From Candidatus Gastranaerophilales bacterium (GTDB lineage: Bacteria > Cyanobacteriota > Vampirovibrionia > Gastranaerophilales > Gastranaerophilaceae), in NCBI GenBank assembly GCA_944322865.1, contig CALUQJ010000014.1, positions 1 to 34,128 on the forward strand: a DNA stretch of 34,128 bases, in the 5' to 3' direction. Each line of letters opens with the position of its first letter. The stretch's first letter is position 1. The notes under the pieces are model-generated. The model was not told where the DNA came from and made no database searches. It worked only from the letters and a program-made list of their open reading frames with translations. A program made the translations under genes and the position numbers. Positions 3,095 to 16,619 of the stretch are shown here, piece after piece.

Positions 3095-5722
3095 TTAAGC
3101 CTCTTCTGGTCCAATGACTTGTACGCCAAATTTTGCACGGAATAGGTGTTTTACGGTGTCGCCTTGAATTTCATACATCATTTTGTTAAACAAATCATAC
3201 GCTTCGCGTTTGTATTCAATAAGCGGGTCTTTTTGTCCGTATGCACGTAAACCAATGCCTTCGCGCAGTATATCAATGTTGTGAAGGTGATCGATCCATT
3301 TATTGTCTACAACGCGTAACAGAATATCTTTTTCCAGATTTCTTATAACGTTATTAGGCGTAAATGGTTTTTGCAATTCAGGATTTTCGTGGTATTTGGT
3401 GAGTATGTCATTATAAAAATTGATAACTTCTTCTTCGTGATCACGATATGCCTTAATTGCAAAATCTTTCAGTTTTTCATAAATAGCTTCATACCTAAGA
3501 TTTTGGATATCAGTTACCTTAATTGCTGATAATTGCGGAACTATTGAGTGCAATTCTTTTATCATAGTTACAAGATCTTCATAGATATATTCATCAGGGT
3601 TTTGCCCCGGCGCAATGTAACTTTTTATAATTCGTTCTATTTCGCGTTCAATCATATAATAAATATCCTGGCTCAGGTCATCACCACGTAAGACACGGCG
3701 GCGCTGTGCATAGAATTTTTCACGCTGGATATTCATCACATCATCGTATTCAAGAACACTTTTTCTTATGTCAAAGTGATAGGTTTCAACTTTCTTTTGT
3801 GCTGATTGGATTTGACGGGTAATCAACGGGGATTCTATCGCCATATTTTCATCAACGTTAAGAGCATTCATTAAGGTTGTAATTTTGTCGCCGCCAAAAA
3901 TTCTCATCAAATTATCTTCAAGAGATAAGAAAAATCTTGTAGAACCCGGATCCCCTTGACGTGCAGCACGACCTCTTAACTGGTTGTCAATACGGCGGGA
4001 TTCGTGGCGTTCTGTACCGATAACGTGCAGTCCGCCTGCTTCCACAACCTGTTTGTGTTCTTTTTCTGTTAACATTCTTGCTTTTGCAAGTAATTCTTCT
4101 TTTTTAGCCTCGTATTCGGGTGAATTTTCATCTAAATGCAGAGAGTCTAAAACTTCTTTTGCCAAATATTCAGCGTTACCGCCAAGCAGAATATCAGTAC
4201 CACGACCTGCCATATTGGTGGCAATTGTAACTGCACCTACACGTCCTGCCTGAGCAATAATATATGCTTCTTTCATATGATGTTTTGCGTTTAAGACATT
4301 GTGCTTGATGCCAAGCTTTTTAAGCAGTGCAGATACATATTCTGATTTTTCAATACTTATAGTACCGACAAGCACAGGACGTCCTTTTTTGTGCTGTTCT
4401 ATGATATCTTGAACAACTGCATTAAATTTTGCACGTTCATTTTTGTAGATAACATCAGGATAGTTAATCCTGATATCAGGTTTATTGGTTGGAATAGATG
4501 TAACCTCAAGGTTATAAATCTTGCCAAATTCGGCTTCTTCTGTCATTGCAGTACCTGTCATGCCTGATAATTTCGGATATAGGCGGAAAAGATTCTGGAA
4601 TGTTATGCTGGCAAGTGTTTGGGTTTCATCCTGAATTTTTACCCCTTCTTTTGCTTCAATAGCTTGATGAAGTCCGTCAGACCAACGGCGCCCCTCCATT
4701 AGACGTCCCGTAAATTCATCAACTATCATTACTTCGTTATTCTTGATTACATAATCAGTATCACGTACAAATAATTCTTTAGCTTTCAGGGCTTGCAAAA
4801 GGTGATGCGCATATTGGGTTGAAATATCGAATAAATCTTTTACTCCCAAAAGTTCTTGCGCGTGATCAATACCTTCTTCTGTTAAAATAATATTTTTATT
4901 TTTTTCATCAACTTCATAATCTTTAATTTTTTCCAGTTGTGGTGCTATTTTAGCCATTAATTGATATGTTTCTGCTGACTTTTCGACCCGTCCGCTTATA
5001 ATAAGCGGCGTTCTAGCCTCATCAATCAGGATACTGTCAACTTCGTCTATTATGGCGTAGTTGTAAGGTCTTTGAACAAGCATTTCAACACTGCCTGCCA
5101 TGTTGTCACGCAAATAGTCAAAACCAAATTCATTATTGGTTCCGTAAGTAATATCACAATCGTATGCTGCTTTTTTAGCGGCAAAATCTTCAGCACTGCG
5201 CCCGCCAGAGAGGATTACGCCTACACTTAACCCTAAAAATTTGTAGATTTTTCCCATCCATTCGCTGTCACGTTTTGCGAGGTAGTCATTAACCGTAATT
5301 ACGTGAACACCTTTACCAGTCAAAGCATTAAGGTAAGCCGGTAAAGTTGCAACAAGAGTTTTACCTTCACCTGTTCTCATTTCTGCAATGTGCCCGTTAT
5401 GCAGGAAGTATCCGCCTATAAGCTGAACATCAAAGTGACGCATATTCAATACACGTTTTCCGGCTTCACGGACAGTTGCAAAAGCTTCCGGTAAAATTTT
5501 GTCCAGCGCTTCTTTTTCTAATTTTCTGTCAGTTTTGAAATCCTCTGATGTCGGGCGAGCAGCAAGAATTGCCTTAAATTCATCGGTTTTAGCACGTAAT
5601 TCAGCATCTGTCATCTCTGCAAAAATCGGTTCCAGTGCGTTTATATGGTCAATTACGCCCATCATATTTTTAATTTTTCTTTCGTTGGGATCACCTAACA
5701 ATTTTAATAATAAGCTTATCAT
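3095..5722 (-). CDS. secA: Preprotein translocase ATPase SecA
   Basis: Motor of Sec-dependent protein export, working with SecYEG at the inner membrane. The 875 aa show the DEAD motor: Walker A MRTGEGKT (residues 115-122), DEVD (226-229) followed by [10 protein letters not shown], the preprotein cross-linking region, the NBD2 block [18 protein letters not shown] with [26 protein letters not shown], and the helical scaffold/wing domains to the end. The C-terminus stops at VIGPEEA and lacks the CxCx8C(H/C) zinc finger that binds SecB in many Proteobacteria, as is common in other phyla. A GGAGAGG lies about 13 nt before the ATG. It has its own terminator and appears monocistronic. Confidence 0.98.
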
Positions 5723-5817: not shown

Positions 5818-5848
5818 AAAAATCCTGATGTTGATAATCAGGATTTTT
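5818..5848 (-). terminator. Intrinsic terminator after the 539-aa gene
   Basis: Arms AAAAATCCTGAT (5818-5829) and ATCAGGATTTTT (5837-5848) with a 7-nt loop. The stem overlaps the TAA stop codon (5847-5849) and is followed on the minus strand by a run of T. Confidence 0.85.
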
Positions 5849-7466
5849 ATGAATTGAACATTGTAAATACTTTTTCTACGTTCTTACTAATCATACTCTT
5901 GACCGTATCAAATTCGGTTGTAAGAGCTGAAATTTCAAGGTCAAGGTTTTTCATTTCTATTTCAAGCGTTTCTTCTTTGTAATTTAATTTATTTTTCTTA
6001 GTTGTGTATTCAGCTTCAGCGAGAGTTACCGCTTCGTCGTCAGTTACTTCACCAACACAGCCGTTAGCTGTATAATGGTCTTGATAATAGTAGTTATTTG
6101 TATTTATAGAAGATATGAAGTATTGTCCGTTTTTCAACGCATTCTGTAAAAATTCGTTGTCATTTACATCCTCATTTCTGGTCCAGCCGTGATTACAAAT
6201 ATTGTTATACAATACGTTAATGAAGTCTGCAACCATCATATCTTTTTCTTCGTAAACAGAATCCGGCTGCTTCATAACATACATGTAATTGTAGTCATTT
6301 GTTACAAAATTTGATTCAGAGGCTTTTTCAGTGTTATAGTAATCTGCTTCATAGCCGCTTAATGCAACTGCATAGTTGGTTAAGAACATTTCAACCAAAT
6401 TGGAAAGGCTGACGCACATTCCTCTGCGTACGTTGTAAACACCGCCGTTTCTATCATTTGCCTCGGTCAATACATCGTCTGTTGACGTAAATAAGCTACC
6501 ATATGATGTTGTATTATCTGCTAACTGCTGAATAGTTTCATTTAATGCAAATTCAAAAGCTTGTGTATCTTCTGTTTGGGTATCAACCGGCAGTAGTGCT
6601 CTAAACAGAGTACTTATATCAGCCAAAGCAGACATTACCTCATTGGTACCATCTATCGTGCCTTCGGTTGCATTTCGTTCTTTAACAAGCTCTTTCAGTT
6701 TTTTTACAAAATCTGTTTCAGACATATTAAAATTAATTGTAACATTGCTTGTTAACAAATCTACAATTGTGAAATTTTCAGTATATTTTGAGCCGTTTCT
6801 ATAAACAGTACCGTAAGTACCGTCGTTTGTGAATGTTAATTTGGATTCTAAATCTTTATAGTTTTGATACTGAACAGAATTAGGGTCAAGCTGGCTCGTG
6901 AATGACGGATCAAGAAGGTTTTCAAAATAGTTAACCATAGTTGGAAGTGTCATAGCCTGAGCAATACTCTTATCTAACAGCTGTCCGCCAAAACCTGCTT
7001 TCTCACTCCATTCAATAGTAGGATTACCATTAACCCCAATAATAGCATCAGCAACAGCACTGGAAATATATCCGACACTCGCTAATGCTTGAACAAAAGT
7101 GTTACGACCGGCAAGGCTTCCTGTTGACGAAACAGAATCAATACCCGCAGCTTCGCAGGCTTGTGCCAGTTGCTCATCTAAAACAATCTGACCTGTTCTG
7201 TTCGTTACAAGGAACGGACTGTAACCGTTTAATTCTGACGGACTCATCATAATATCGTAACTTAAATCATAAACAGTACCGTCTTCTGTTTCTCCGTCCC
7301 AAACTAATTTAGTAGCATCCAATGCTCTCTGGTACTGATCACTCAATTCAGAAAGTTCACGGGTAATAGAAAGCTTTTCCTGTGCAATTGCCATAGAACG
7401 AAATTCACAGTCAGCTTTTCTGGCAGTGATGGCTAAAAATCTTGCTTGTGAAGCAGCCAATCCCAT
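5847..7466 (-). CDS. Gastranaerophilales-type MGLAASQ protein, 539 aa, unknown function
   Basis: I recognise the N-terminus MGLAASQARFLAITARK as typical of a family common in gut Melainabacteria, but know no function for it. Residues 1-55 are helical and heptad-like (EFRSMAIAQEKLSITRELSE), the centre is rich in Asn, Thr, Ser and Tyr, and the last 70 residues again look like a coiled coil (LNYKEETLEIEMKNLDLEIS ... MISKNVEKVFTMFNS). Helical ends around a variable middle recall flagellin/hook-type export substrates; that is analogy, not homology. No signal peptide is evident. Ribosome site AAGGACGGAG precedes the ATG. It sits just downstream of the phage terminase gene, so it may be cargo, a structural phage protein, or simply a host neighbour. 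Confidence 0.75.
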   Translation of the reverse strand: MGLAASQARFLAITARKADCEFRSMAIAQEKLSITRELSELSDQYQRALDATKLVWDGETEDGTVYDLSYDIMMSPSELNGYSPFLVTNRTGQIVLDEQLAQACEAAGIDSVSSTGSLAGRNTFVQALASVGYISSAVADAIIGVNGNPTIEWSEKAGFGGQLLDKSIAQAMTLPTMVNYFENLLDPSFTSQLDPNSVQYQNYKDLESKLTFTNDGTYGTVYRNGSKYTENFTIVDLLTSNVTINFNMSETDFVKKLKELVKERNATEGTIDGTNEVMSALADISTLFRALLPVDTQTEDTQAFEFALNETIQQLADNTTSYGSLFTSTDDVLTEANDRNGGVYNVRRGMCVSLSNLVEMFLTNYAVALSGYEADYYNTEKASESNFVTNDYNYMYVMKQPDSVYEEKDMMVADFINVLYNNICNHGWTRNEDVNDNEFLQNALKNGQYFISSINTNNYYYQDHYTANGCVGEVTDDEAVTLAEAEYTTKKNKLNYKEETLEIEMKNLDLEISALTTEFDTVKSMISKNVEKVFTMFNS

Positions 7467-7588: not shown

Positions 7589-8878
7589 TTATAGAGTTAT
7601 CGGCCAGTAAAAATCTACCAGATATGATGCTGCATCAAAAGGATGTGACAAGAATTTTAATTCTTTCGACTGTTTAATTTGCTGATATGTCGGAATATCA
7701 ATTTGTGAGGTACCTTCTTTGTATTTAAGATTGTAGATATTATACAAAAGCTTTTCGCATTTTTTGTCGACATATAGGCATATTTCGCCGTCAGCAGAAC
7801 GAACTTTTGCATTGAATGCCATAACCCTGTTTTTTATAGGCGGATTGTAAGGTTTTATCTTAATTTCTACATCATATCCGTGTTTAAGCAGCATTTTTTT
7901 AATGATTACATAATTTGTGTATTCACTTGTACAGCTGCGGTTGTCGCCTGAGGCATCGCCGTTTATGATAATTTTGCCTTTGTGATTAGGATAGCGCCTG
8001 CAAAATTCTTCACAGGCTTTTGCAGTTGTCGTGTTTTCCAGAACTATTTCATCAAAATAAAATACTTTATCATCGGTTTTATGAGCAAGAACCCACGCCA
8101 TTGGATCCACATTGAAATCGCAGCTTATGTGTAAATCAAATTCAGGCTGATAAGATATCTCCTTCACATTTTCTTCTGTAAAGTCTTTTATTACAAGCCC
8201 GTTATTATATTCCGCATTTTGAGCAAGTACAAATATTTTATAATACTGCTCATCATATAACTTTTTCAATTCTTCGCAGTAACCTTCGGGCAGATAGATA
8301 TTCTCAGTAGTTGGTGCAGTGATAAGCCGGTAGTTTTCGGGCGGATTAACCATAAAAGTTTTATAAATCCAGCCGCGGCACATTTCAGGGTTTGTATGCC
8401 CGAAAATCCTATATTTAAAGTTTGTCCAACTCTTTTTAATTTTTTGCCGCATTCGGCTTAAAAGCATCAAAAATGTATCATAAGGAATATCAGACATTTC
8501 TTCTATTTCCACAAATCCTAAATTCAATGATTTTAACTTGTTTGGTTCATCAAAATGCCTGAATAAAATTTCAGAACCGTTTTTAAACCTCATTTTTTGC
8601 TGTGAGGCAGACCATTCATAATCTTTTCCCTCCATAAAGCCCATATTATCAAGATGTTCAAAATAAGTTTGTAATGTGGTATCTCTGACTAAAGTATATG
8701 TTTGCGCGCCGACAAGCCCCCTTATTCCGGGAAACTTATGACAGAGCAAAATCCCAAGCAGTGACCCGGAAAAGGTTTTGCCTGATCCATAACCTCCCTG
8801 ATAAACAGCAACATCCAGCTTTTGATTGTGCGGTATCTCCAAAAATTCCCGCTGAGCCTTTAATAACTTGTATTCCAT
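7589..8878 (-). CDS. terL: Phage terminase large subunit
   Basis: DNA-packaging motor: an ATPase that pumps DNA through the portal, plus a nuclease that cuts concatemers. The 429 aa show Walker A GGYGSGKT (residues 28-35), Walker B FVEIEE (122-127), the coupling region (residues 130-165, ending HTNPEM), and an RNase H-like nuclease domain with acidic residues D254 (ISCDFNVDPMAW), D308 (IINGDASGD) and D415 (HPFDAASYLVDFYW). Length and motif order fit the Terminase_6/Terminase_3 type. All catalytic residues are present, so it should be active. It lies downstream of the portal gene but beyond a terminator hairpin, the reverse of the usual terL-then-portal transcription order. Confidence 0.95.
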   Translation of the reverse strand: MEYKLLKAQREFLEIPHNQKLDVAVYQGGYGSGKTFSGSLLGILLCHKFPGIRGLVGAQTYTLVRDTTLQTYFEHLDNMGFMEGKDYEWSASQQKMRFKNGSEILFRHFDEPNKLKSLNLGFVEIEEMSDIPYDTFLMLLSRMRQKIKKSWTNFKYRIFGHTNPEMCRGWIYKTFMVNPPENYRLITAPTTENIYLPEGYCEELKKLYDEQYYKIFVLAQNAEYNNGLVIKDFTEENVKEISYQPEFDLHISCDFNVDPMAWVLAHKTDDKVFYFDEIVLENTTTAKACEEFCRRYPNHKGKIIINGDASGDNRSCTSEYTNYVIIKKMLLKHGYDVEIKIKPYNPPIKNRVMAFNAKVRSADGEICLYVDKKCEKLLYNIYNLKYKEGTSQIDIPTYQQIKQSKELKFLSHPFDAASYLVDFYWPITL

Positions 8879-8927
8879 AAATTAATTTTCCCTCATATAT
8901 GTTTTTGTGAATAATTTTGTAAAAAAA

Positions 8928-8963
8928 GTGCCGCCTGAGTGTCCCAAAGAAAAAAGGCGGCAC
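8928..8963 (-). terminator. Intrinsic terminator between portal and terL
   Basis: Arms GTGCCGCCT (8928-8936) and AGGCGGCAC (8955-8963), loop of 18 nt. On the minus strand the GC-rich 9-bp stem is followed at once by seven T. It lies 15 nt beyond the portal stop and 50 nt before the terL start, so it should reduce terL relative to portal. Confidence 0.8.
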
Positions 8964-8978
8964 AGAGATGTCTAATCA

Positions 8979-10667
8979 TTATGCTGTTTGCTCTTCTGTA
9001 GAAGGATTTGGTGTATTATTCTTGGTATCTGTTAAAAAATTATTTGCGTTTTCTATTCCGTACTGTTCAAGTGCGAATTTAAAACATTCCAGCCAATTTA
9101 CGCTTTCTTTTACATTCGGAAGTTCAGCCAGATTTTTTAGAACTTCAAACAACTCTTTTATACGTGTTTTTCTTTCAAAAGTTGCCTTACGGTCGCCGTA
9201 GCGGTAGATGTAATTTGCATTCCTTATTTTGTCATCAATCTCAAGAAAGCCGGTATTGCCGTGATCATTTACGGCAATTAGCTCTCTTCCCAGTTTGAAA
9301 TTAGCGATAATTTCAGCGGTTTTCTCAACCATAGGTATAATGACTTTTCTGTTAATCGCATCAAGCATCATATTCAATCTGACTTCCTGCCCGTTAGCAG
9401 AATAATTAAGTTCAGTTGCAGTACGGTTAACAGGCTGAATATCTCCAGCCATGTTCTTAAAAATTCCGGTTGCGCTTTCTATTGTACTTTTAAAGTAATT
9501 CAGAAAATCCCAGCCGACCATGGCTTTGTCAAATTCAAGCGGTGTCGGCGGCTGCGGCATTAGAGCCGCGTCATATTCAATAATTTTGCCCGGTCTGACA
9601 TCCTGTTGACCTTTGAAACAGCCTTTAGGGGCTAAATACGGCGGATTCATCATTAAGGCAAGCGCATCCAGCTGTTCATTCAAAATGGTTGAAGATATAC
9701 TGTTTAAGACAAGTGCTACGCGTAACGGTGAAATTCCGCGACCGGTACGGGGATCTTCTATTACATTTGCATAGATAAAAGGATTTATTACAAAAGGATT
9801 AGCCTCAAACCTTATAATTTCCCGGCGCCCTGCAACTACTACAATTTTGTTTTTTAAAATCTTGCCGTTTGCAAGTTCTATATCTCCCCAGTATTCTAGT
9901 ATTTCTAGCTTATTATCATCTACTGATCTGTCATTTTCTGTTCTTCGTTTTTTCGCCACCACTCCTCTCAATATTTCTTTTTTAACTTCATTTAGCAAAT
10001 TATTTGATTTATCAGATATAATATCGTCCATTGTGCGGTATGTTCTGTAAATTTTTGCACATGAATCCCAGTTATCAACATCGAATTTGTCGAATACAAA
10101 ATCTTCCGGTTTTATATGCTTAATTTTGGCATTATCATAAATAACTTTTTCTTCAATAACAAACCCGGGTTCATAGCCGGATTGTAATTGTTCTTCAAGG
10201 GTAAACGGACGTCTTATCTGTTTAATTTTTGTATCCCAGCCGACGAATAATGTAGTTTCGCCGGTTTCAACAATACTGTCTATAACTTTATCCAGAATAT
10301 TTTCAATATTCATTTGTTCGAAAGTGTTAACGAGCATTGCTTTTTGCCTGTTGGCATACATCTGTGTTTCCGGAGTCGTACCTGAAACATCAAACATTGC
10401 ATCAGCATGTGAATATAAATTCTGACTTATATGCGATTTAAGTGTCTGCGCAAGTTCATAAATATCAGGCAGTGACATTTTTGTATCCCAGGCATTTGAA
10501 TAAGGTAAATCAATATCATATATTGCATTCCGCACAGTTCTTATGTCACTTAATTGAGAAGCTCGTCTGTTCTCGTACTCATCGTATTTTTTGCAAATTA
10601 TATTTACCAGATTAACCTGTTCGCCTACACTCAATTCTTTTGTTAGATCATCTTTTTGTATTTCCAT
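8979..10667 (-). CDS. Phage portal protein
   Basis: Dodecameric ring at the capsid vertex through which DNA enters and leaves. The 562 aa resemble podovirus/P22-like portal proteins: N-terminal capsid-interacting region with DLPYSNAWDTKMSLPDIYEL, then a wing-like region (GETTLFVGWDTK, IKHIKPEDFVFDKFDVDNWD), the stem/crown core (INPFIYANVIEDPRTGRGIS, LRVALVLNSISSTILNEQLD, MMNPPYLAP), and a helical tail. The fold is recognised by pattern, without any diagnostic catalytic motif. Ribosome site AAGAGG lies upstream. It follows the 120-aa gene by 22 nt and is probably co-transcribed with terS. Confidence 0.85.
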   Translation of the reverse strand: MEIQKDDLTKELSVGEQVNLVNIICKKYDEYENRRASQLSDIRTVRNAIYDIDLPYSNAWDTKMSLPDIYELAQTLKSHISQNLYSHADAMFDVSGTTPETQMYANRQKAMLVNTFEQMNIENILDKVIDSIVETGETTLFVGWDTKIKQIRRPFTLEEQLQSGYEPGFVIEEKVIYDNAKIKHIKPEDFVFDKFDVDNWDSCAKIYRTYRTMDDIISDKSNNLLNEVKKEILRGVVAKKRRTENDRSVDDNKLEILEYWGDIELANGKILKNKIVVVAGRREIIRFEANPFVINPFIYANVIEDPRTGRGISPLRVALVLNSISSTILNEQLDALALMMNPPYLAPKGCFKGQQDVRPGKIIEYDAALMPQPPTPLEFDKAMVGWDFLNYFKSTIESATGIFKNMAGDIQPVNRTATELNYSANGQEVRLNMMLDAINRKVIIPMVEKTAEIIANFKLGRELIAVNDHGNTGFLEIDDKIRNANYIYRYGDRKATFERKTRIKELFEVLKNLAELPNVKESVNWLECFKFALEQYGIENANNFLTDTKNNTPNPSTEEQTA

Positions 10668-10689
10668 AGTAATTTCCTCTTGTTAAGAC

Positions 10690-11052
10690 TTATTCACAAA
10701 ATTCGGTATACTCAAATTTCACGTAGACATCGCCGTTGGCAAACGATGACATACTTCCGCGTGCGATACTGTCCCTCACATTTGCCTGTAATCCAAGTAA
10801 GGCTTCTGCCTGAACTCCGTTAATACAGCTTTCTGTTTTGGATTTTCTGTTATAGACCTTGAACACGGAATTTGCGGAAAAAATTAATTTGGGCGGAACC
10901 TGTTTAATATCGGTAATGTGTCTTGTAACTTTTTTTGCTTTAGCCTTTTCTATTTCTTCTACATACTCACTTTCTATCTTCTTTTTAATTAAATCATCAA
11001 GCGAGGTGTTTGCTAAGAGTATTTGTTCAGCATTAGTGTCTTGATTTTTCAT
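10690..11052 (-). CDS. Hypothetical phage-module protein, 120 aa
   Basis: Not recognised. It lies between terS and portal with short spacing on both sides (29 and 22 nt) and has a clear AAGGAG site, so it belongs to the packaging operon. Residues 1-45 are charged and helical (LIKKKIESEYVEEIEKAKAK); the rest looks beta-rich (PPKLIFSANSVFKVYNRKSK, GVQAEALLGLQANVRDSIAR, GDVYVKFEYTEF). A basic patch follows the acidic helix. It could be a head accessory or a terminase/portal cofactor; no homology is claimed. Confidence 0.75.
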   Translation of the reverse strand: MKNQDTNAEQILLANTSLDDLIKKKIESEYVEEIEKAKAKKVTRHITDIKQVPPKLIFSANSVFKVYNRKSKTESCINGVQAEALLGLQANVRDSIARGSMSSFANGDVYVKFEYTEFCE

Positions 11053-11081
11053 AAGTTTAATCTCCTTAAAATTTTAGTTTG

Positions 11082-11513
11082 TTAAATTTTTTCATCATCT
11101 AAATTTGAAATAGTAATAATTTTGGCTGGCTTATAATCCTCTGTTTCCGGTTCATTAAAGCCGAGATACTTGCAAAGACTTTCAAGAGCTTTTAGTCCGG
11201 CAGAAGTATCACGCAGCTTTCGTTTTCCTGTTGCACAGCCGTCTTTATCGAGAATATCTTCTTCCGTTAGTGAAAATTCGGCTATCTGTAATAACTTTTG
11301 TATTACATAACCCTTGTGTACACAAAGTGAAGATATTTGATTCTTAATTTGAAGTTTTATTTCATTTATTACAAATTTGTCAGAAAGTAATCTTTCAGCG
11401 ACCTCTTTCAAATCCTTTGATTTATAACCGGCACGCCGGGCTGAAAGCTCGCCGTCTAAAGATTTTATGTATTCTGAAACAAATTTTTTCTGTTGATTTG
11501 TCAGTCGTTTCAT
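11082..11513 (-). CDS. terS: Phage terminase small subunit
   Basis: DNA-recognition subunit of the packaging motor. The 143 aa begin with the Terminase_2-type HTH signature, LTNQQKKFVSEYIKSLDGEL then SARRAGYKSKDLKEVAERLL, followed by helical oligomerisation sequence (VINEIKLQIKNQISSLCVHK, YVIQKLLQIAEFSL) and a C-terminal tail with LRDTSAGLKALESLCKYLGF. No clear ribosome site precedes the ATG. A 141-nt gap upstream may hold a promoter. It is separated from terL by the 120-aa gene, portal and a terminator, whereas terS and terL usually adjoin. Confidence 0.88.
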   Translation of the reverse strand: MKRLTNQQKKFVSEYIKSLDGELSARRAGYKSKDLKEVAERLLSDKFVINEIKLQIKNQISSLCVHKGYVIQKLLQIAEFSLTEEDILDKDGCATGKRKLRDTSAGLKALESLCKYLGFNEPETEDYKPAKIITISNLDDEKI

Positions 11514-11654
11514 CGTTAAAAGTTTACATTTCTCAATATAATTTGTGTTTTTATGAAAAAAATTGTATAATAACCATGCTATTTATATTTCGGCTAGTGT
11601 AAATCTTAACAGGGGGCAATGAATTTTACTTCCTGTTTTTTTTGCGCTGATTTA

Positions 11655-12293
11655 CTAGCGCCGGAACAATCTTACAAACGGCGTATAATCAGCATCTATA
11701 GCTATTTTTGAACGCATATTTGCAAGAGCGGCATTATACATATCCTGCCAGTAGCTGAATTTTACATGCTGCGGATCTCCTTTAAGGCGCAGGCATGTTC
11801 CGTAAACAAGTATTTGTTCAGTGAAGGGTTCAGGAATTAGCGCTTTATCATCGGCTTCTTCAAGATAACTTTTTTCCTGATTTTCGGCTGAAACAGCAAG
11901 ATTACGGGTATAGTAAATGATATTTATAAGTTTGTTCTCTTCAAATTCCGGAAACAGAAACTTGTCATTAAAAACACTAAAAACCCGTCCTCTGTCGCGG
12001 TATTTCAAGAATAATTGGAAGTTTTCGCAGAAATTATACTTAATTCCGTCTATATAGACCGCCAAAATTCTTCCATAAATGTTATTTGCAACTGTTTTAG
12101 TTCCGGCTGGCAGTGTCAATTCTTCTTGCCTGAGAAGAAAATTCCAATTCATAGAGGAACAAACATCCTGTGCCACTAAATTTATATAGTTTTTTATTCT
12201 CTGATGCTCCGGTTTTATCAGGTCTGAAAAATCTTCAACCTGCCGGAAATTCAATTCTGATAAACATTTGTTTATAATATCAAGATAATTCAT
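11655..12293 (-). CDS. Phage head-to-tail adaptor (gp4/gp11-like neck protein)
   Basis: Neck protein that docks on the portal to close the filled head. The 212 aa show the layout of podovirus adaptor proteins: MNYLDIINKCLSELNFRQVE, then a long helix ending QDVCSSMNWNFLLRQEELTL, a beta region beginning LPAGTKTVANNIYGRILAVY, and a C-terminal helical block with IPEPFTEQILVYGTCLRLKG and FSYWQDMYNAALANMRSK. Assignment rests on this pattern and on position next to scaffold and coat. It is the only neck or tail-related gene in the module. Ribosome site CAGGAGAT is good. Confidence 0.7.
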   Translation of the reverse strand: MNYLDIINKCLSELNFRQVEDFSDLIKPEHQRIKNYINLVAQDVCSSMNWNFLLRQEELTLPAGTKTVANNIYGRILAVYIDGIKYNFCENFQLFLKYRDRGRVFSVFNDKFLFPEFEENKLINIIYYTRNLAVSAENQEKSYLEEADDKALIPEPFTEQILVYGTCLRLKGDPQHVKFSYWQDMYNAALANMRSKIAIDADYTPFVRLFRR

Positions 12294-12319
12294 ATATTTA
12301 ATCTCCTGTTAATTTGGGG

Positions 12320-12343
12320 ATACGGGGGCATGTACCCCCGCAT
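12320..12343 (-). other. GC-rich intergenic hairpin between scaffold and adaptor genes
   Basis: On the minus strand CGGGGG, loop TACATG, CCCCCG, extended by a G-U pair and two A-T pairs, lies 6 nt after the scaffold stop. No T-tract follows; instead the ribosome site of the adaptor gene comes next. It is more likely an mRNA-stability or processing element than a terminator. Confidence 0.55.
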
Positions 12344-12349
12344 GCCTTT

Positions 12350-12931
12350 TTATCTTCTGATAAGTCCTTTACGCATTTGATCCATAATAGCTTCTTCGTT
12401 TTCAAGAAATTCTTTTGTGGACATTTTCCCTATTTCAGCACGTGAAAATGAGCGGGAAAACTTGCTGTCTGTACCGGCTCCTTGAGCATTAGAAGTCATA
12501 CGGCTTTTGTCATAGGAATTTCGGCTGTTGAGATTTTTTTCATAATCAGCTTTTTTTGTGTAATTTTCAACTGCCTGATTTTCAAGAGTTCCTATCATGC
12601 CGGATATAGCATTGTAATTTTCTTTGTTTAAATCTGGATTAAGTTTTTTTAAGTAGTCAAACAGTTCCGTGTAATTTTCAGCAACAGTATATCCGTCATT
12701 ATTTTGTGATTGCTGTGTGTGCGGCTCTTGCTGCTGAGGCGGAATGTTGTTTTCGGCTGACTGGAGTCCAAGTGATTGTTTAAGCCAGCTCATACCTTCC
12801 TGCTCTGGAATTGCGCCGTTTTTAATCAAAGATATTATTGTGTTCATGTTATCTAAGACATCGGTCTTTTTTGCTGTATTTGTAGTAGAGGAAGGTGTTT
12901 GATTTTTATTTTGTTCTATATCTTCTGACAT
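12350..12931 (-). CDS. Phage capsid scaffolding protein
   Basis: Internal assembly chaperone of the procapsid. The 193 aa are hydrophilic and low in complexity, with a Thr/Asn-rich start and a Gln-rich stretch near residues 64-78 (PPQQQEPHTQQSQ). The C-terminus FSRAEIGKMSTKEFLENEE followed by AIMDQMRKGLIRR closely resembles the F-x-R-x-I-x-x-M-S-x-x-E-F pattern ending many phage scaffolds, the part that binds coat protein. It lies directly downstream of the coat gene, although scaffolds are usually encoded upstream of coat. AAGGAG precedes the ATG. Confidence 0.8.
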   Translation of the reverse strand: MSEDIEQNKNQTPSSTTNTAKKTDVLDNMNTIISLIKNGAIPEQEGMSWLKQSLGLQSAENNIPPQQQEPHTQQSQNNDGYTVAENYTELFDYLKKLNPDLNKENYNAISGMIGTLENQAVENYTKKADYEKNLNSRNSYDKSRMTSNAQGAGTDSKFSRSFSRAEIGKMSTKEFLENEEAIMDQMRKGLIRR

Positions 12932-12969
12932 AATTTCTCCTTTTTATTTTATGTGTACATTTAGGAAAA

Positions 12970-12991
12970 GCGGGTGTAAAAATACACCCGC
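12970..12991 (-). terminator. Probable intrinsic terminator after the coat gene
   Basis: Arms GCGGGTGT (12970-12977) and ACACCCGC (12984-12991), 6-nt loop, 8 nt beyond the coat stop codon. On the minus strand it is followed by TTTT only, so read-through into scaffold is likely. It would give high coat and lower scaffold expression. Confidence 0.65.
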
Positions 12992-12999
12992 GCAAGGGG

Positions 13000-13899
13000 T
13001 TATGATGCACTAAATATAGCTTTTGCAAGTGCTTTCGGCTGCACTGTTTTTGCACCATATAAATACAACCCTCTGACTAAGTCAGAAAAACTGTCTTTAT
13101 CTCTCAGGGTTTCAATTCTCGCGAGTTGTGAGGCAAAAGTAATTGCTTCATTTGTTCCGGCAAGAACATAGTATTTATTTGCGGTTGCAGTCAAATTTGT
13201 TGAAACAAGTACATCCATGCCGGCAATTCTGCCTATTGCACCTTCACGTAATGTTTTATCCGCAACATTGTGTGCACTGATAAATTCAGAGCTTTGTAAA
13301 AGATAGGATTCAATTGTAGGGTTAATCACTACCCAAGGACGAATACCGGCATGTACGGCATCTGAATTTTTCAGGCAGAGGGCGAGTTTTACAAACTGTT
13401 CGTAAATAGTGGTCTTACTCAAAGCAATAGGTGTTTCGTCACTACCTATTGTATTTGCGGTTTCTACATTGCTATGCATTGACAATAAATAAGCATCCTG
13501 AACTTCTTCAATAGCTTTCTTTGCGTTTGCAAGATGCGCAATCATAATATCGGTATTTGCCTGAACATGCGCAATATCATTGATTTTGAATGCAAAGAAT
13601 TTTTTCTGATCAATAACCAGATCCTGAGATTCAGGTTCTAATTCATCATAGGTAATGTTTGATGTGCCCAGGGTTGAAATTGAAACTTTTGCCGGTGTGA
13701 TAATTTTTACGGTATCACCCTGATTAGCAATTTCACCTTCGTAATTTCTGTTAACACATTGCAGCATTACACATTCTTTTTCTAGTAAAGCATTGAGTTT
13801 TTGGCTCCAGACCTCCGGTATAAATACGTCATATGCATTTGTAGATGCTGAAGTTGATGCCGGCTGCTGTGAACCTCCTGTTTGTGCTGATTCTGTCAT
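13000..13899 (-). CDS. Phage major capsid (coat) protein
   Basis: Shell protein with an inferred HK97-type fold. I place the start at the ATG at 13899 (MTESAQTGGSQQP), because AAAGGG lies 9 nt before it, while the ATG six codons upstream (13917) has no ribosome site. That gives 299 aa. After a Ser/Gln/Thr-rich N-arm come typical coat segments: VFIPEVWSQKLNALLEKECV, GEIANQGDTVKIITPAKVSI, the YDELEPESQDLVIDQKKFFA strand, IRPWVVINPTIESYLLQSSE, GAIGRIAGMDVLVSTNLTAT and the C-terminal FSDLVRGLYLYGAKTVQPKA. The pattern is close to P22-type and other podovirus coats. Confidence 0.87.
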   Translation of the reverse strand: MTESAQTGGSQQPASTSASTNAYDVFIPEVWSQKLNALLEKECVMLQCVNRNYEGEIANQGDTVKIITPAKVSISTLGTSNITYDELEPESQDLVIDQKKFFAFKINDIAHVQANTDIMIAHLANAKKAIEEVQDAYLLSMHSNVETANTIGSDETPIALSKTTIYEQFVKLALCLKNSDAVHAGIRPWVVINPTIESYLLQSSEFISAHNVADKTLREGAIGRIAGMDVLVSTNLTATANKYYVLAGTNEAITFASQLARIETLRDKDSFSDLVRGLYLYGAKTVQPKALAKAIFSAS

Positions 13900-13969
13900 T
13901 TTGAATTTCCCTTTCATTTTTCATAACTACAACAGACCAATATGTGAAAAAATACACATATCGAAAAAT

Positions 13970-14458
13970 TTATCCCTGTAAGATGTACCATTTTACTTTT
14001 GAGCGAATAAAAGCCCCGATATCATCCTGTGCCACCCAGGGATAAGACGGTATATAGATGATATCAATTTTTCCCGCACTGCTTGTTTTCGGATTTTTTA
14101 GACCAAATTCATAATGCGTTAAGACGGTATTAGGATTTACTTTAATATTGTATTTAACCGCCAGTTCAGCGCATAATTTCATTGAAGCCTCAAATTGTTT
14201 TGCAGTAATCGGATAACTGCCGGTCAAATTCCGGCTTTTAAAACCGTTCATTGCGCAGAGCGCTACTCCTATCGAGGCGGTATTACCGCCCCCGGTATGC
14301 GCTGCGTATTGTCCGGGTTTACATATTTCATTATTTTCCGGTTTGTACTTTCCGTTATGCACATTCCCGTCTTTATCAATCAGAAAATGATAACATTCAA
14401 GCTCATGTGCATTCGGATAATATCCTCCGGCTGTCCAATGAAGTATAATTCGTTTCAT
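13970..14458 (-). CDS. N-acetylmuramoyl-L-alanine amidase (PGRP/T7 lysozyme-like endolysin)
   Basis: Zinc amidase that cuts the bond between MurNAc and the stem peptide. The 162 aa form a single Amidase_2 domain: HWTAGG gives ligand His7, TVLTHYEFG gives His115, and GKID near residues 129-132 supplies Lys130 and the third ligand position (Asp132; Cys in T7 lysozyme). Other family features are YHFLIDKDG, AAHTGGGNTASIGVALC and KQFEASMKL. No signal peptide or membrane anchor is present, so release would need a holin, and none is seen. It lies between the LuxR-type gene (8 nt) and the coat gene. Likely the lysis enzyme of the module. Confidence 0.9.
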   Translation of the reverse strand: MKRIILHWTAGGYYPNAHELECYHFLIDKDGNVHNGKYKPENNEICKPGQYAAHTGGGNTASIGVALCAMNGFKSRNLTGSYPITAKQFEASMKLCAELAVKYNIKVNPNTVLTHYEFGLKNPKTSSAGKIDIIYIPSYPWVAQDDIGAFIRSKVKWYILQG

Positions 14459-14466
14459 AAATTTCC

Positions 14467-14697
14467 TTAAATAAATCGTTTGTATTTTTTATTGAATTCA
14501 GTTACCCATTTCGGATTTCTCATGATATAAGCCAAAACTGCATGTCCTCTGTTTCGAGCGTTGAGTTTTAATACCATTCTCTGAACATGTGTTCTAACTG
14601 TCCCATATTGAATTTTTAATTTGTTACCGATTTCTTGATCCGAATAACCTAAAGCAACCAAAGCCAAAACATCAAGTTCCTTTGGTGACAAGTCCAT
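14467..14697 (-). CDS. Stand-alone LuxR/GerE-type helix-turn-helix protein
   Basis: A 76-aa protein that is essentially only a LuxR C-terminal DNA-binding domain: LSPKELDVLALVALGYSDQE, IGNKLKIQYGTVRTHVQRMV, then KLNARNRGHAVLAYIM. There is no receiver, PAS or autoinducer domain. It heads the endolysin/coat transcription unit, right after a terminator, so it is a good candidate for controlling late genes of this module. Ribosome site AAGGA is 6 nt before the ATG. Single-domain GerE proteins occur in phages; the target here is unknown. Confidence 0.85.
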   Translation of the reverse strand: MDLSPKELDVLALVALGYSDQEIGNKLKIQYGTVRTHVQRMVLKLNARNRGHAVLAYIMRNPKWVTEFNKKYKRFI

Positions 14698-14799
14698 CTT
14701 AATTCCTTCGTTTTAAATGAGTATTTTTACTTTATTTCTTAAGCTTAACTGAAAAAATCACGATTTCGCTTAAAAATATTTCCTCTGTTTTAAAAAAAC

Positions 14800-14818
14800 G
14801 GGAGGAGTAATTCCTCCC
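14800..14818 (-). terminator. Intrinsic terminator after the zinc-ribbon gene
   Basis: Arms GGGAGGA (14800-14806) and TCCTCCC (14812-14818), 5-nt loop, followed on the minus strand by seven T. It is 28 nt beyond the stop of the 136-aa gene and separates it from the LuxR-type gene. Confidence 0.85.
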
Positions 14819-14846
14819 CTGAGAGTAAGATAATTAATTGGATTGT

Positions 14847-15257
14847 TTAAATGGATTTTTTCCTTGTTATTTTTTCTTTTTTACCAAAGGATTTAGAGTC
14901 AAGGTTTTGATCTGTTCCGAGTTTCATATTGCTCAGGTTTGAATAACATCTTTTAATAACGCCATATTCGTTGTAATTCAGATAAAATCTACCGTAATAA
15001 TTGGTGTACTTAATATGGACGATTTCATAAAGGATGTCTTGCTTTAGTCTTTCAAAGAAGTTTTCGGCCTTTTGGTTCGTTTTACGAACAGTAACCACAT
15101 CACCGTCAGATGTAATCTTAGTGAGTTGAACTACCATATGACCGCAGGTTGGACATTTGGTGAGTACATCTACTTCACATATTAAAAACCCGATTTGCGG
15201 CACGAGTCTAAAGGTCCTTGTCTTACGCAAGGCGCCGCAGCAATGTATATATCCCAT
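14847..15257 (-). CDS. Zinc-ribbon-like hypothetical protein, 136 aa
   Basis: Function unknown. The start is set at the ATG at 15257 (MGYIHCCGALRKTRTFRLVP) because GAGGAGAT lies 5 nt upstream; an in-frame ATG 63 nt further up has no such site. The first 45 residues carry Cys pairs CCG and CPTCGH, plausible as a zinc ribbon, and a Thr/Arg-rich strand between them. The second half is helical and basic (NFFERLKQDILYEIVHIKYT; tail KKEKITRKKS). It may bind nucleic acid. It has a long, hairpin-rich 5' leader and its own terminator, so it is a separate transcription unit at the edge of the phage module. Confidence 0.78.
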   Translation of the reverse strand: MGYIHCCGALRKTRTFRLVPQIGFLICEVDVLTKCPTCGHMVVQLTKITSDGDVVTVRKTNQKAENFFERLKQDILYEIVHIKYTNYYGRFYLNYNEYGVIKRCYSNLSNMKLGTDQNLDSKSFGKKEKITRKKSI

Positions 15258-15414: not shown

Positions 15415-15460
15415 GTCCACAAATCTGTGTACACAAACTTGTGTACACAGATCTGTGGAC
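15415..15460 (-). terminator. Very long terminator hairpin (22-bp arms) after the radical SAM gene
   Basis: Arms 15415-15436 and 15439-15460 pair at 21 of 22 positions around a 2-nt spacer; key elements are GTCCAC at the outer ends and TGTGTACACA in each arm. On the minus strand it is followed by TTTTATTTTTTTT. It lies 88 nt after the radical SAM stop. Each arm also holds its own palindrome, so a protein-binding role is possible. Confidence 0.7.
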
Positions 15461-15548: not shown

Positions 15549-16619
15549 TTATTTTACTGACAATTCGCAGCACATTTGGCATGCCCCAAATACACGGGAT
15601 GCCTTTAAATTTTTCCGGAAACAGCGGTAATTAGGGAGATTGAAGGCATCCTTTAATGGCATCCCTTTTACATTACCGATTTTTTGAGAAAGGCATGGGT
15701 AAATATCCCCGCATGGATTTATCATCATATTGGAATAAGGGTATAAACAAGGTTTATAAATTTCCTTTACCGGCTTGTCCGCAGGTGTATTAAAAAACTC
15801 CTCTATTTTTGCAATCGGATCTTTTGCATATTCAAATTTCGGGGAAAAACGTATCTGAACTTTTGAATGTTTTTTTAAGGCTTCCAATTCTTTGTAAACC
15901 TCTTTAAAATGCGCCATATCAAAATATTTTTCTATCGGATAATTCCCGTTAAATTCAGGCACAAAGCGGTCAAATAATATTGAATTTTGTTTCAAATTGT
16001 TGTTCCGCAAAAAAGAAATTGATAAAAAATTAAACTTCATTTCATCACACATTTTGTAAAGTTTAACTAAATCATCAAGATTATTTTCAAGAACAATTGT
16101 TTTAATATCAACCATAGGACGCTTAGAGCGGGCATTCATTTTTTCAAAATTAGACATTATTTTGTCAAAAATTCCGGCTTTAGCTCTGTTTTTGTCGTGA
16201 TTATCTCCGTATCCGTCCAAAGACACAGATAAAAGCATCATCTTGGATTTTATAAAAGCATCTATTATTTCATCGTTTATCAGAATTCCGTTTGATACAA
16301 CATTTAATTTCCCGAAAGTTTTTTGGGCGGTTTTCATCAATATGTCAATGAAATCTTTGCGTATCAAAGGTTCTCCGCCAACAAGTGTTACAAAAGAGTA
16401 CCACGGTATCTGATCAATAATTTTAAACCACTCTTCTGTCGTAAGCTCATCTTTATCACGGGAATTTCCTACATAACAATACGGACACTGCAAATTGCAG
16501 CGATAGGTTAATTCGAAAAAATACCTCAATGGCATTAAAGCTTTACCTGAATTGGAGAGATAAGAAGGTAATGCATAAATATTTCGTCCGAGATCAAACA
16601 GATTTGACAAATTTCCCAT
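15549..16619 (-). CDS. Radical SAM/SPASM domain protein
   Basis: Radical SAM enzyme of unknown substrate. The 356 aa contain the [4Fe-4S]-SAM motif CNLQCPYC (Cys41, Cys45, Cys48), LVGGEPLIRKDF for SAM binding, and VSLDG. The C-terminal SPASM-type region has INPCGDIYPCLS and ends FGACQMCCELSVK (Cys347, 350, 351), implying auxiliary clusters. SPASM proteins often modify peptides or act in cofactor and sugar pathways, but no precursor peptide is convincing nearby. The start overlaps the end of the TrpD-like gene by 26 nt, with GAGGG 7 nt before the ATG, so the two are coupled. It is the last gene of its operon. Confidence 0.9.
   Translation of the reverse strand: MGNLSNLFDLGRNIYALPSYLSNSGKALMPLRYFFELTYRCNLQCPYCYVGNSRDKDELTTEEWFKIIDQIPWYSFVTLVGGEPLIRKDFIDILMKTAQKTFGKLNVVSNGILINDEIIDAFIKSKMMLLSVSLDGYGDNHDKNRAKAGIFDKIMSNFEKMNARSKRPMVDIKTIVLENNLDDLVKLYKMCDEMKFNFLSISFLRNNNLKQNSILFDRFVPEFNGNYPIEKYFDMAHFKEVYKELEALKKHSKVQIRFSPKFEYAKDPIAKIEEFFNTPADKPVKEIYKPCLYPYSNMMINPCGDIYPCLSQKIGNVKGMPLKDAFNLPNYRCFRKNLKASRVFGACQMCCELSVK

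Follow-up and report, generated by a model that had tools for sequence, protein, structure and literature searches.

A podovirus-type head and packaging gene cluster of Gastranaerophilales as a likely domesticated, gene-transfer-agent-like element

How does a set of phage head and packaging genes come to lie among the housekeeping genes of a bacterium with no tail or mobility genes beside it? The question is raised by contig CALUQJ010000014.1 of a Candidatus Gastranaerophilales bacterium (34,128 bp, one complete contig of a 1.80-Mb genome with 99.6% completeness; this whole stretch is referred to as the window), in which positions 7589 to 15257 encode terminases, a portal, an adaptor, a coat protein, and an endolysin. 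An earlier note on this DNA had described such a set and read it as a satellite, a gene-transfer-agent-like cluster, or a domesticated capsid. The observation itself is confirmed and its interpretation partly supported. We consider it likely that the cluster is a vertically inherited, domesticated podovirus-type particle locus of Gastranaerophilales, similar in its genes to gene transfer agents (GTAs), and that it probably builds particles carrying the bacterium's own DNA.

Genes were called as simple open reading frames (ORFs) and compared with Pfam and PHROG family profiles. In the order of transcription, the cluster comprises the following genes:

14847-15257, minus strand: o136, conserved leader gene (136 aa) in a conserved position, with a CxxC motif
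14467-14697, minus strand: LuxR/GerE-type helix-turn-helix (HTH) protein, 76 aa, head of the structural operon, conserved position (PF00196, 6.7e-14)
13970-14458, minus strand: N-acetylmuramoyl-L-alanine amidase (endolysin; PF01510 Amidase_2, 1.5e-15; phrog_5867, 2e-32)
13000-13917, minus strand: major capsid protein (MCP; phrog_267, 8.8e-49), a single intact copy in relatives
12350-12931, minus strand: inferred scaffold-like protein, by slot and C-terminal motif, with a fast-evolving N-terminus
11655-12293, minus strand: head-tail adaptor of SU10 type (PF24175 SU10_adaptor, 2.3e-6)
11082-11513, minus strand: TerS, terminase small subunit (PF03592 Terminase_2, 1.6e-14)
10690-11052, minus strand: o120, conserved 120-aa cluster protein whose position is kept among relatives
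8979-10667, minus strand: portal of SU10 podovirus type (PF23899 SU10_portal, 3.2e-22; phrog_332, 2.5e-35)
7589-8878, minus strand: TerL, terminase large subunit (PF04466 Terminase_3, 3.3e-19; phrog_2, 2.8e-33), ATPase and nuclease motifs intact

ORFs and profile matches thus bear out the intact terminases, portal, adaptor, coat, and endolysin of the earlier note, and the genes that it listed are real, although it had omitted o120, the LuxR-type gene, and o136. Its scaffold gene stands in part: the assignment is made because of the position and a C-terminal motif common to the same-slot protein of distant clusters, but the Pfam and PHROG scans gave no match. The TerL motifs GGYGSGKT, VEIEE, DFNVDP, NGDASG, and FDAASY are largely invariant among 33 relatives; a search of the window's own genome with PF03237 found no match, TerL matching PF04466 instead. 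The profile PF24175 also recognises the adaptor encoded by L066, a distant cluster (7.6e-20). For o136, the same profile scans found no family match, and the CxxC motif makes it a possible zinc-ribbon protein, whereas the LuxR-type HTH protein is a candidate regulator. From secA to the radical-SAM gene, ORFs and profile scans revealed no integrase, repressor, or replication gene, i.e., none of the genes expected of a temperate podophage, and the absence of tail and holin genes from this interval is likewise confirmed. No tRNA was found in the window, and the GC content of the cluster (36.3%) is close to that of its flanks (36.2%).

The distribution of the cluster was examined in 88 genomes of the family, including six of the window's genus, with host assignments based on metagenome-assembled genomes (MAGs). 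Each of the six genus members carries one intact copy, and the MCP is single and intact in the five others (82-93% identity) as well as in many family genomes. Of the 88 genomes, 38 contain a TerL with ≥75% identity and no internal stops; across the carriers, no full TerL copy and one MCP copy contain a stop codon. In a separate scan of 80 GTDB loci, the gene order was identical in 49 of 49 loci spanning TerL to the amidase. Ca. Gastranaerophilus phascolarctosicola is among the named GTDB matches, which are MAGs of Candidatus Gastranaerophilales or Melainabacteria; some matches titled 'Fusobacterium' or 'Heliobacteriaceae' we read as mislabelled. Within 20 kb, the cluster is mostly bordered by secA and g539 on one side and by the radical-SAM gene or g265 on the other, and in one genus it adjoins dnaE instead. 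In the window, the two conserved host flanks are:

3095-5722, minus strand: secA (Pfam SecA domains), near the cluster in many relatives
15549-16619, minus strand: radical-SAM/SPASM gene (profile match), a flank that recurs in relatives

A phylogenetic tree of six cluster proteins was compared with that of RpoB, the sole host marker. The trees have 12 of 22 splits in common, recover every genus with several genomes, and do not conflict at any branch with support of ≥95 in both; the distance matrices are correlated (Mantel r 0.80, which no permutation reached). A broader RpoB tree places the carriers mainly in a single large group that has G020 at its edge and non-carriers nested inside it, the deepest branches having low support. 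Nei-Gojobori dN/dS ratios were 0.01-0.03 for TerL, 0.02-0.06 for the portal, and 0.03-0.08 for the MCP, compared with 0.01-0.03 for SecA. With dS close to saturation, these values are rough, though far below 1. The gene sequences thus show genus-level co-diversification with the hosts, in keeping with vertical inheritance, and the ratios, rough as they are, show strong purifying selection, TerL appearing as constrained as SecA.

The near-saturated dS is one of several points that weigh against a domesticated locus of this kind. In approximately unbiased (AU) tests, a topology common to the cluster and RpoB is rejected in both directions, so that strict congruence is not shown, and some exchange or tree error may affect the deep branches. 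Many genera of the family are without the cluster. The amidase of one congener (G005; L034:10555-11037) has an in-frame TGA in an otherwise open frame. No tail-fibre or receptor-binding gene was found; candidate homologues of tail fibres were rejected, the weak matches being host metabolic genes or apparent fibres of other prophages. By its genes, the cluster is GTA-like rather than a proven GTA. The earlier note had named conserved synteny, purifying selection on the coat and terL genes, and a vertical phylogeny as marks of domestication. The first two are found, in the form of conserved order and flanks and of the low TerL and MCP ratios, whereas the third holds for the genera, which agree with the host tree, but not for identical topology. 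At the genus level, the domesticated, GTA-like reading therefore passes the synteny, selection, and tree tests.

The element of the window's genus differs from that of its relatives. Almost all other carrier genera have an extra ~509-aa protein between the MCP and the amidase and a GNAT acetyltransferase between the portal and o120; frequently there is an LLH-type holin as well, located between the scaffold and the MCP. The predicted structure of the ~509-aa protein (pLDDT 80) matches nozzles or tail proteins of the podophages Pa223, VP1, SU10, and P22 (gp10) with E-values down to 1e-18, and by this fold match it is a putative tail nozzle. It occurs in all 32 carriers sampled outside the genus; two of these have a fragment of it, located where the contig ends. 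Relocation or divergence of the nozzle gene within the genus was rejected, as a profile search of its six genomes at E ≤ 10 returned one weak fragment (E 0.03); relocation of the GNAT gene was rejected as well, with none found in whole-genome searches of the six. Only G005 keeps the holin and a membrane-type protein of 76 aa in its cluster; both are gone from the clusters of the other five genomes, and the window shows tight junctions of 53 and 22 bp. Since the nozzle is present in the other carriers and gone genus-wide, the 'no tail' state represents a secondary, genus-level loss. The description 'without tail' is thus right as to the nozzle of this genus, but an adaptor is retained, and ancestrally the element had a nozzle. 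As to tail genes of the same phage displaced by assembly, which the earlier note had allowed for, the window is a whole contig and the nozzle gene is nowhere else in the genome.

When rates are scaled to that of TerL, the window's genus shows no acceleration over the nozzle-bearing genera for the adaptor and most other parts; the scaffold-like protein alone evolves faster there. The lack of acceleration indicates that the head and packaging set stayed under selection after the nozzle was lost. In phages and in sister-family loci (L182, L183, L190, L192, L348, and L353), the GNAT gene adjoins or neighbours the nozzle gene. This neighbourhood, together with their joint loss from the window's genus, suggests a functional link between the two.

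GTAs are defined by caudoviricete-derived proteins, packing of random host DNA, endogenisation, vertical inheritance, and delivery of the DNA; they often occupy several loci and have heads too small for their own genome (PMC9662315). The Gastranaerophilales cluster has caudoviricete-derived terminase, portal, adaptor, and MCP profiles, with the nozzle fold in relatives; it is endogenised as a single host-flanked cluster, with dispersed loci in sister families; and it co-diversifies with its hosts, though with the topological limit given above. Domestication is proposed because vertical inheritance and constraint are combined with loss of mobility, and a GTA-like role because the terminases and the portal are retained and on the basis of these published criteria. 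In the proposed mechanism, the LuxR-type protein would help to turn on the operon in some cells, the scaffold-like protein and the MCP would assemble a procapsid around the portal, and TerS and TerL, having no phage genome, would load the heads with host DNA. The amidase would then free the particles, and the DNA would arrive in kin cells and integrate by recombination. Delivery would proceed through a P22/SU10-like nozzle in most genera, whereas in the window's genus an unrecognised protein might replace the nozzle or the particles might work without it, DNA-filled heads being released by lysis and their DNA taken up by competence. ComEC is encoded in the window genome, which is compatible with competence-type uptake but is no evidence for it. 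We only tentatively suggest that the genus (g1) has a functional, nozzle-less domesticated DNA-packaging capsid for gene transfer or DNA storage, with cargo that would exit by lysis and enter via competence.

Of the rival explanations, the one that survives best is still improbable: in the window's genus, the tailless capsids would transfer no DNA and would serve another role, such as bacteriocin-like lysis, an intracellular DNA or cargo compartment, or a decoy. The genome-wide loss of the nozzle and GNAT genes, the departure of the holin and the 76-aa protein from five of six clusters, and the continued constraint on capsid and packaging genes would suit such a role. However, the constraint on TerL, TerS, and the portal indicates that DNA packaging apparently still matters, and a replacement tail may have escaped detection. 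Less probable still is a recent or recurrent prophage remnant that decays at a favoured site. Such decay would explain the missing nozzle, GNAT, and holin genes and the amidase stop codon of G005, but it is largely contradicted by full TerL copies without stops and a single stop in the MCP, by dN/dS values of ~0.02-0.08 that are alike in nozzle-less and nozzle-bearing genera, by the 49 copies of one order, and by the genus-level agreement with the host tree. The rejection of random decay in the earlier note is upheld by the same order, constraint, and intact copies across relatives.

The domesticated, GTA-like locus was further compared with phages and viral contigs. Among deposited phages (INPHARED), the best TerL has ~27% identity. 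In IMG/VR, contigs with ≥76% TerL identity contain this very cluster, in several cases bordered by host sequence, and group with the chromosomal copies in the TerL tree; contigs at 62-68% group with sister-family sets or more diverged phage-like loci, and those at 54-60% form a separate group. Two contigs of the last group (L159 and L176; 54-56%) carry DnaB-type replication genes together with a tyrosine integrase and so exemplify the gene content of a genuine temperate phage whose TerL is related. Since the order in distant phages is TerL-portal-(scaffold)-MCP-adaptor-nozzle-GNAT, the chromosomal cluster is rearranged. A phage satellite of the capsid-encoding kind known from phage-inducible chromosomal islands (PICIs), with the tail provided by a helper phage, is the least credible reading and, as offered by the earlier note, is not supported: tail genes are missing from the window's genus and TerL-related temperate phages are possible helpers, but there is no integrase in or near the cluster and no primase or satellite regulator, most genera have their own nozzle, and the single copy co-diversifies with the host in a chromosomal context conserved across genera.

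The IMG/VR viral contigs L113-L137 are mostly the chromosomal cluster, several of them host-flanked, and were apparently misclassified as viruses. In sister families of the order, these gene families recur in a different arrangement or spread over more than one locus (e.g., G099 and G107), with the sets intact, and there o120 adjoins the nozzle and adaptor genes; the AlphaFold model of o120 (pLDDT 85) gave no fold match in the PDB. In another family of the class, L066-L070 are collinear (portal-scaffold-MCP-adaptor-nozzle), some with a fibre gene, and the terminase lies elsewhere in the genome. The sister-family sets and L066-L070 may be further elements of this kind, the latter as a second candidate GTA-like lineage. 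A divergent set in G044 (L343 and L344; TerL 59%) spans >20 kb beside housekeeping genes and has repeated small membrane-type genes; no integrase was recognised among the few of its proteins that were scanned, and it may be either a prophage or another domesticated element.

Alphaproteobacterial type I GTAs have long-tailed ancestry and full tail genes, whereas the Gastranaerophilales connector and nozzle are of podovirus type, and the window's genus is even without the nozzle. RcGTA and CcGTA are similar to the cluster in being caudoviricete-derived, fixed in a chromosomal cluster, and vertically inherited (PMC9662315). The podoviruses SU10 and P22 have the same portal and adaptor families and the nozzle fold seen in relatives, but they are autonomous phages and carry genes for replication. 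Other independent exaptations of phages that are likewise inherited vertically are BhGTA (VSH-1) of Brachyspira and BaGTA of Bartonella, set apart by description through their other hosts and ancestors (PMC9662315). Among published elements, FpGTA of Faecalibacterium is the nearest by description; it is presented as the first GTA-like element of podovirus-like type, likewise comes from gut bacteria, and has a ~10-kb operon of TerS, TerL, portal, scaffold, and MCP (PMC12946183, 2026). Seven strains have no second operon of tail and lysis genes (PMC12946183). FpGTA belongs to another phylum, and its particles and packaged 8-9 kb DNA were shown, in contrast to the genes alone here (PMC12946183). 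The open-access literature, outside which most subscription journals and preprints lie, holds no such element in Gastranaerophilales or Melainabacteria, and as far as it reaches the element is undescribed in Gastranaerophilales.

In a large group of gut bacteria that are non-photosynthetic relatives of cyanobacteria, virus-derived shell and packaging genes would thus have been taken permanently into the chromosome and be inherited with it, and their intact persistence after loss of the tail tip in the window's genus is unusual. If the element is active, the range of GTAs comes to include these bacteria and a podovirus ancestry in which the genes have been reordered. Gastranaerophilales would offer a natural series, from dispersed sets in sister families through a compact nozzle-bearing cluster in most carrier genera to a nozzle-less cluster in one genus, and would allow one to study which components are retained by selection and whether there is a benefit in packaging DNA when no recognised tail is present. 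In viral databases, these loci of the chromosome are entered as virus contigs.

The intergenic regions of the cluster contain three further features:

12970-12991, minus strand: terminator-like hairpin in the MCP/scaffold gap (consensus scan)
14800-14818, minus strand: terminator-like hairpin at the boundary between o136 and the LuxR-MCP-TerL genes (consensus scan)
15415-15460, minus strand: strong terminator-like inverted repeat with a 20-bp stem followed by a T-run

The first hairpin may provide dosage control, and the terminator-like repeat would insulate the cluster from the radical-SAM operon upstream of it. Next to TerL, g539 (5847-7466, 539 aa) is one of a repeated, fast-evolving family of the genome with the same N- and C-termini and variable middles. 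It was considered as part of the element and rejected, being a repeated host family with shared termini that is missing where the cluster lies near dnaE. Between ychF and secA, an HTH gene and a HicBA-like toxin-antitoxin pair (2041-2989) vary among congeners.

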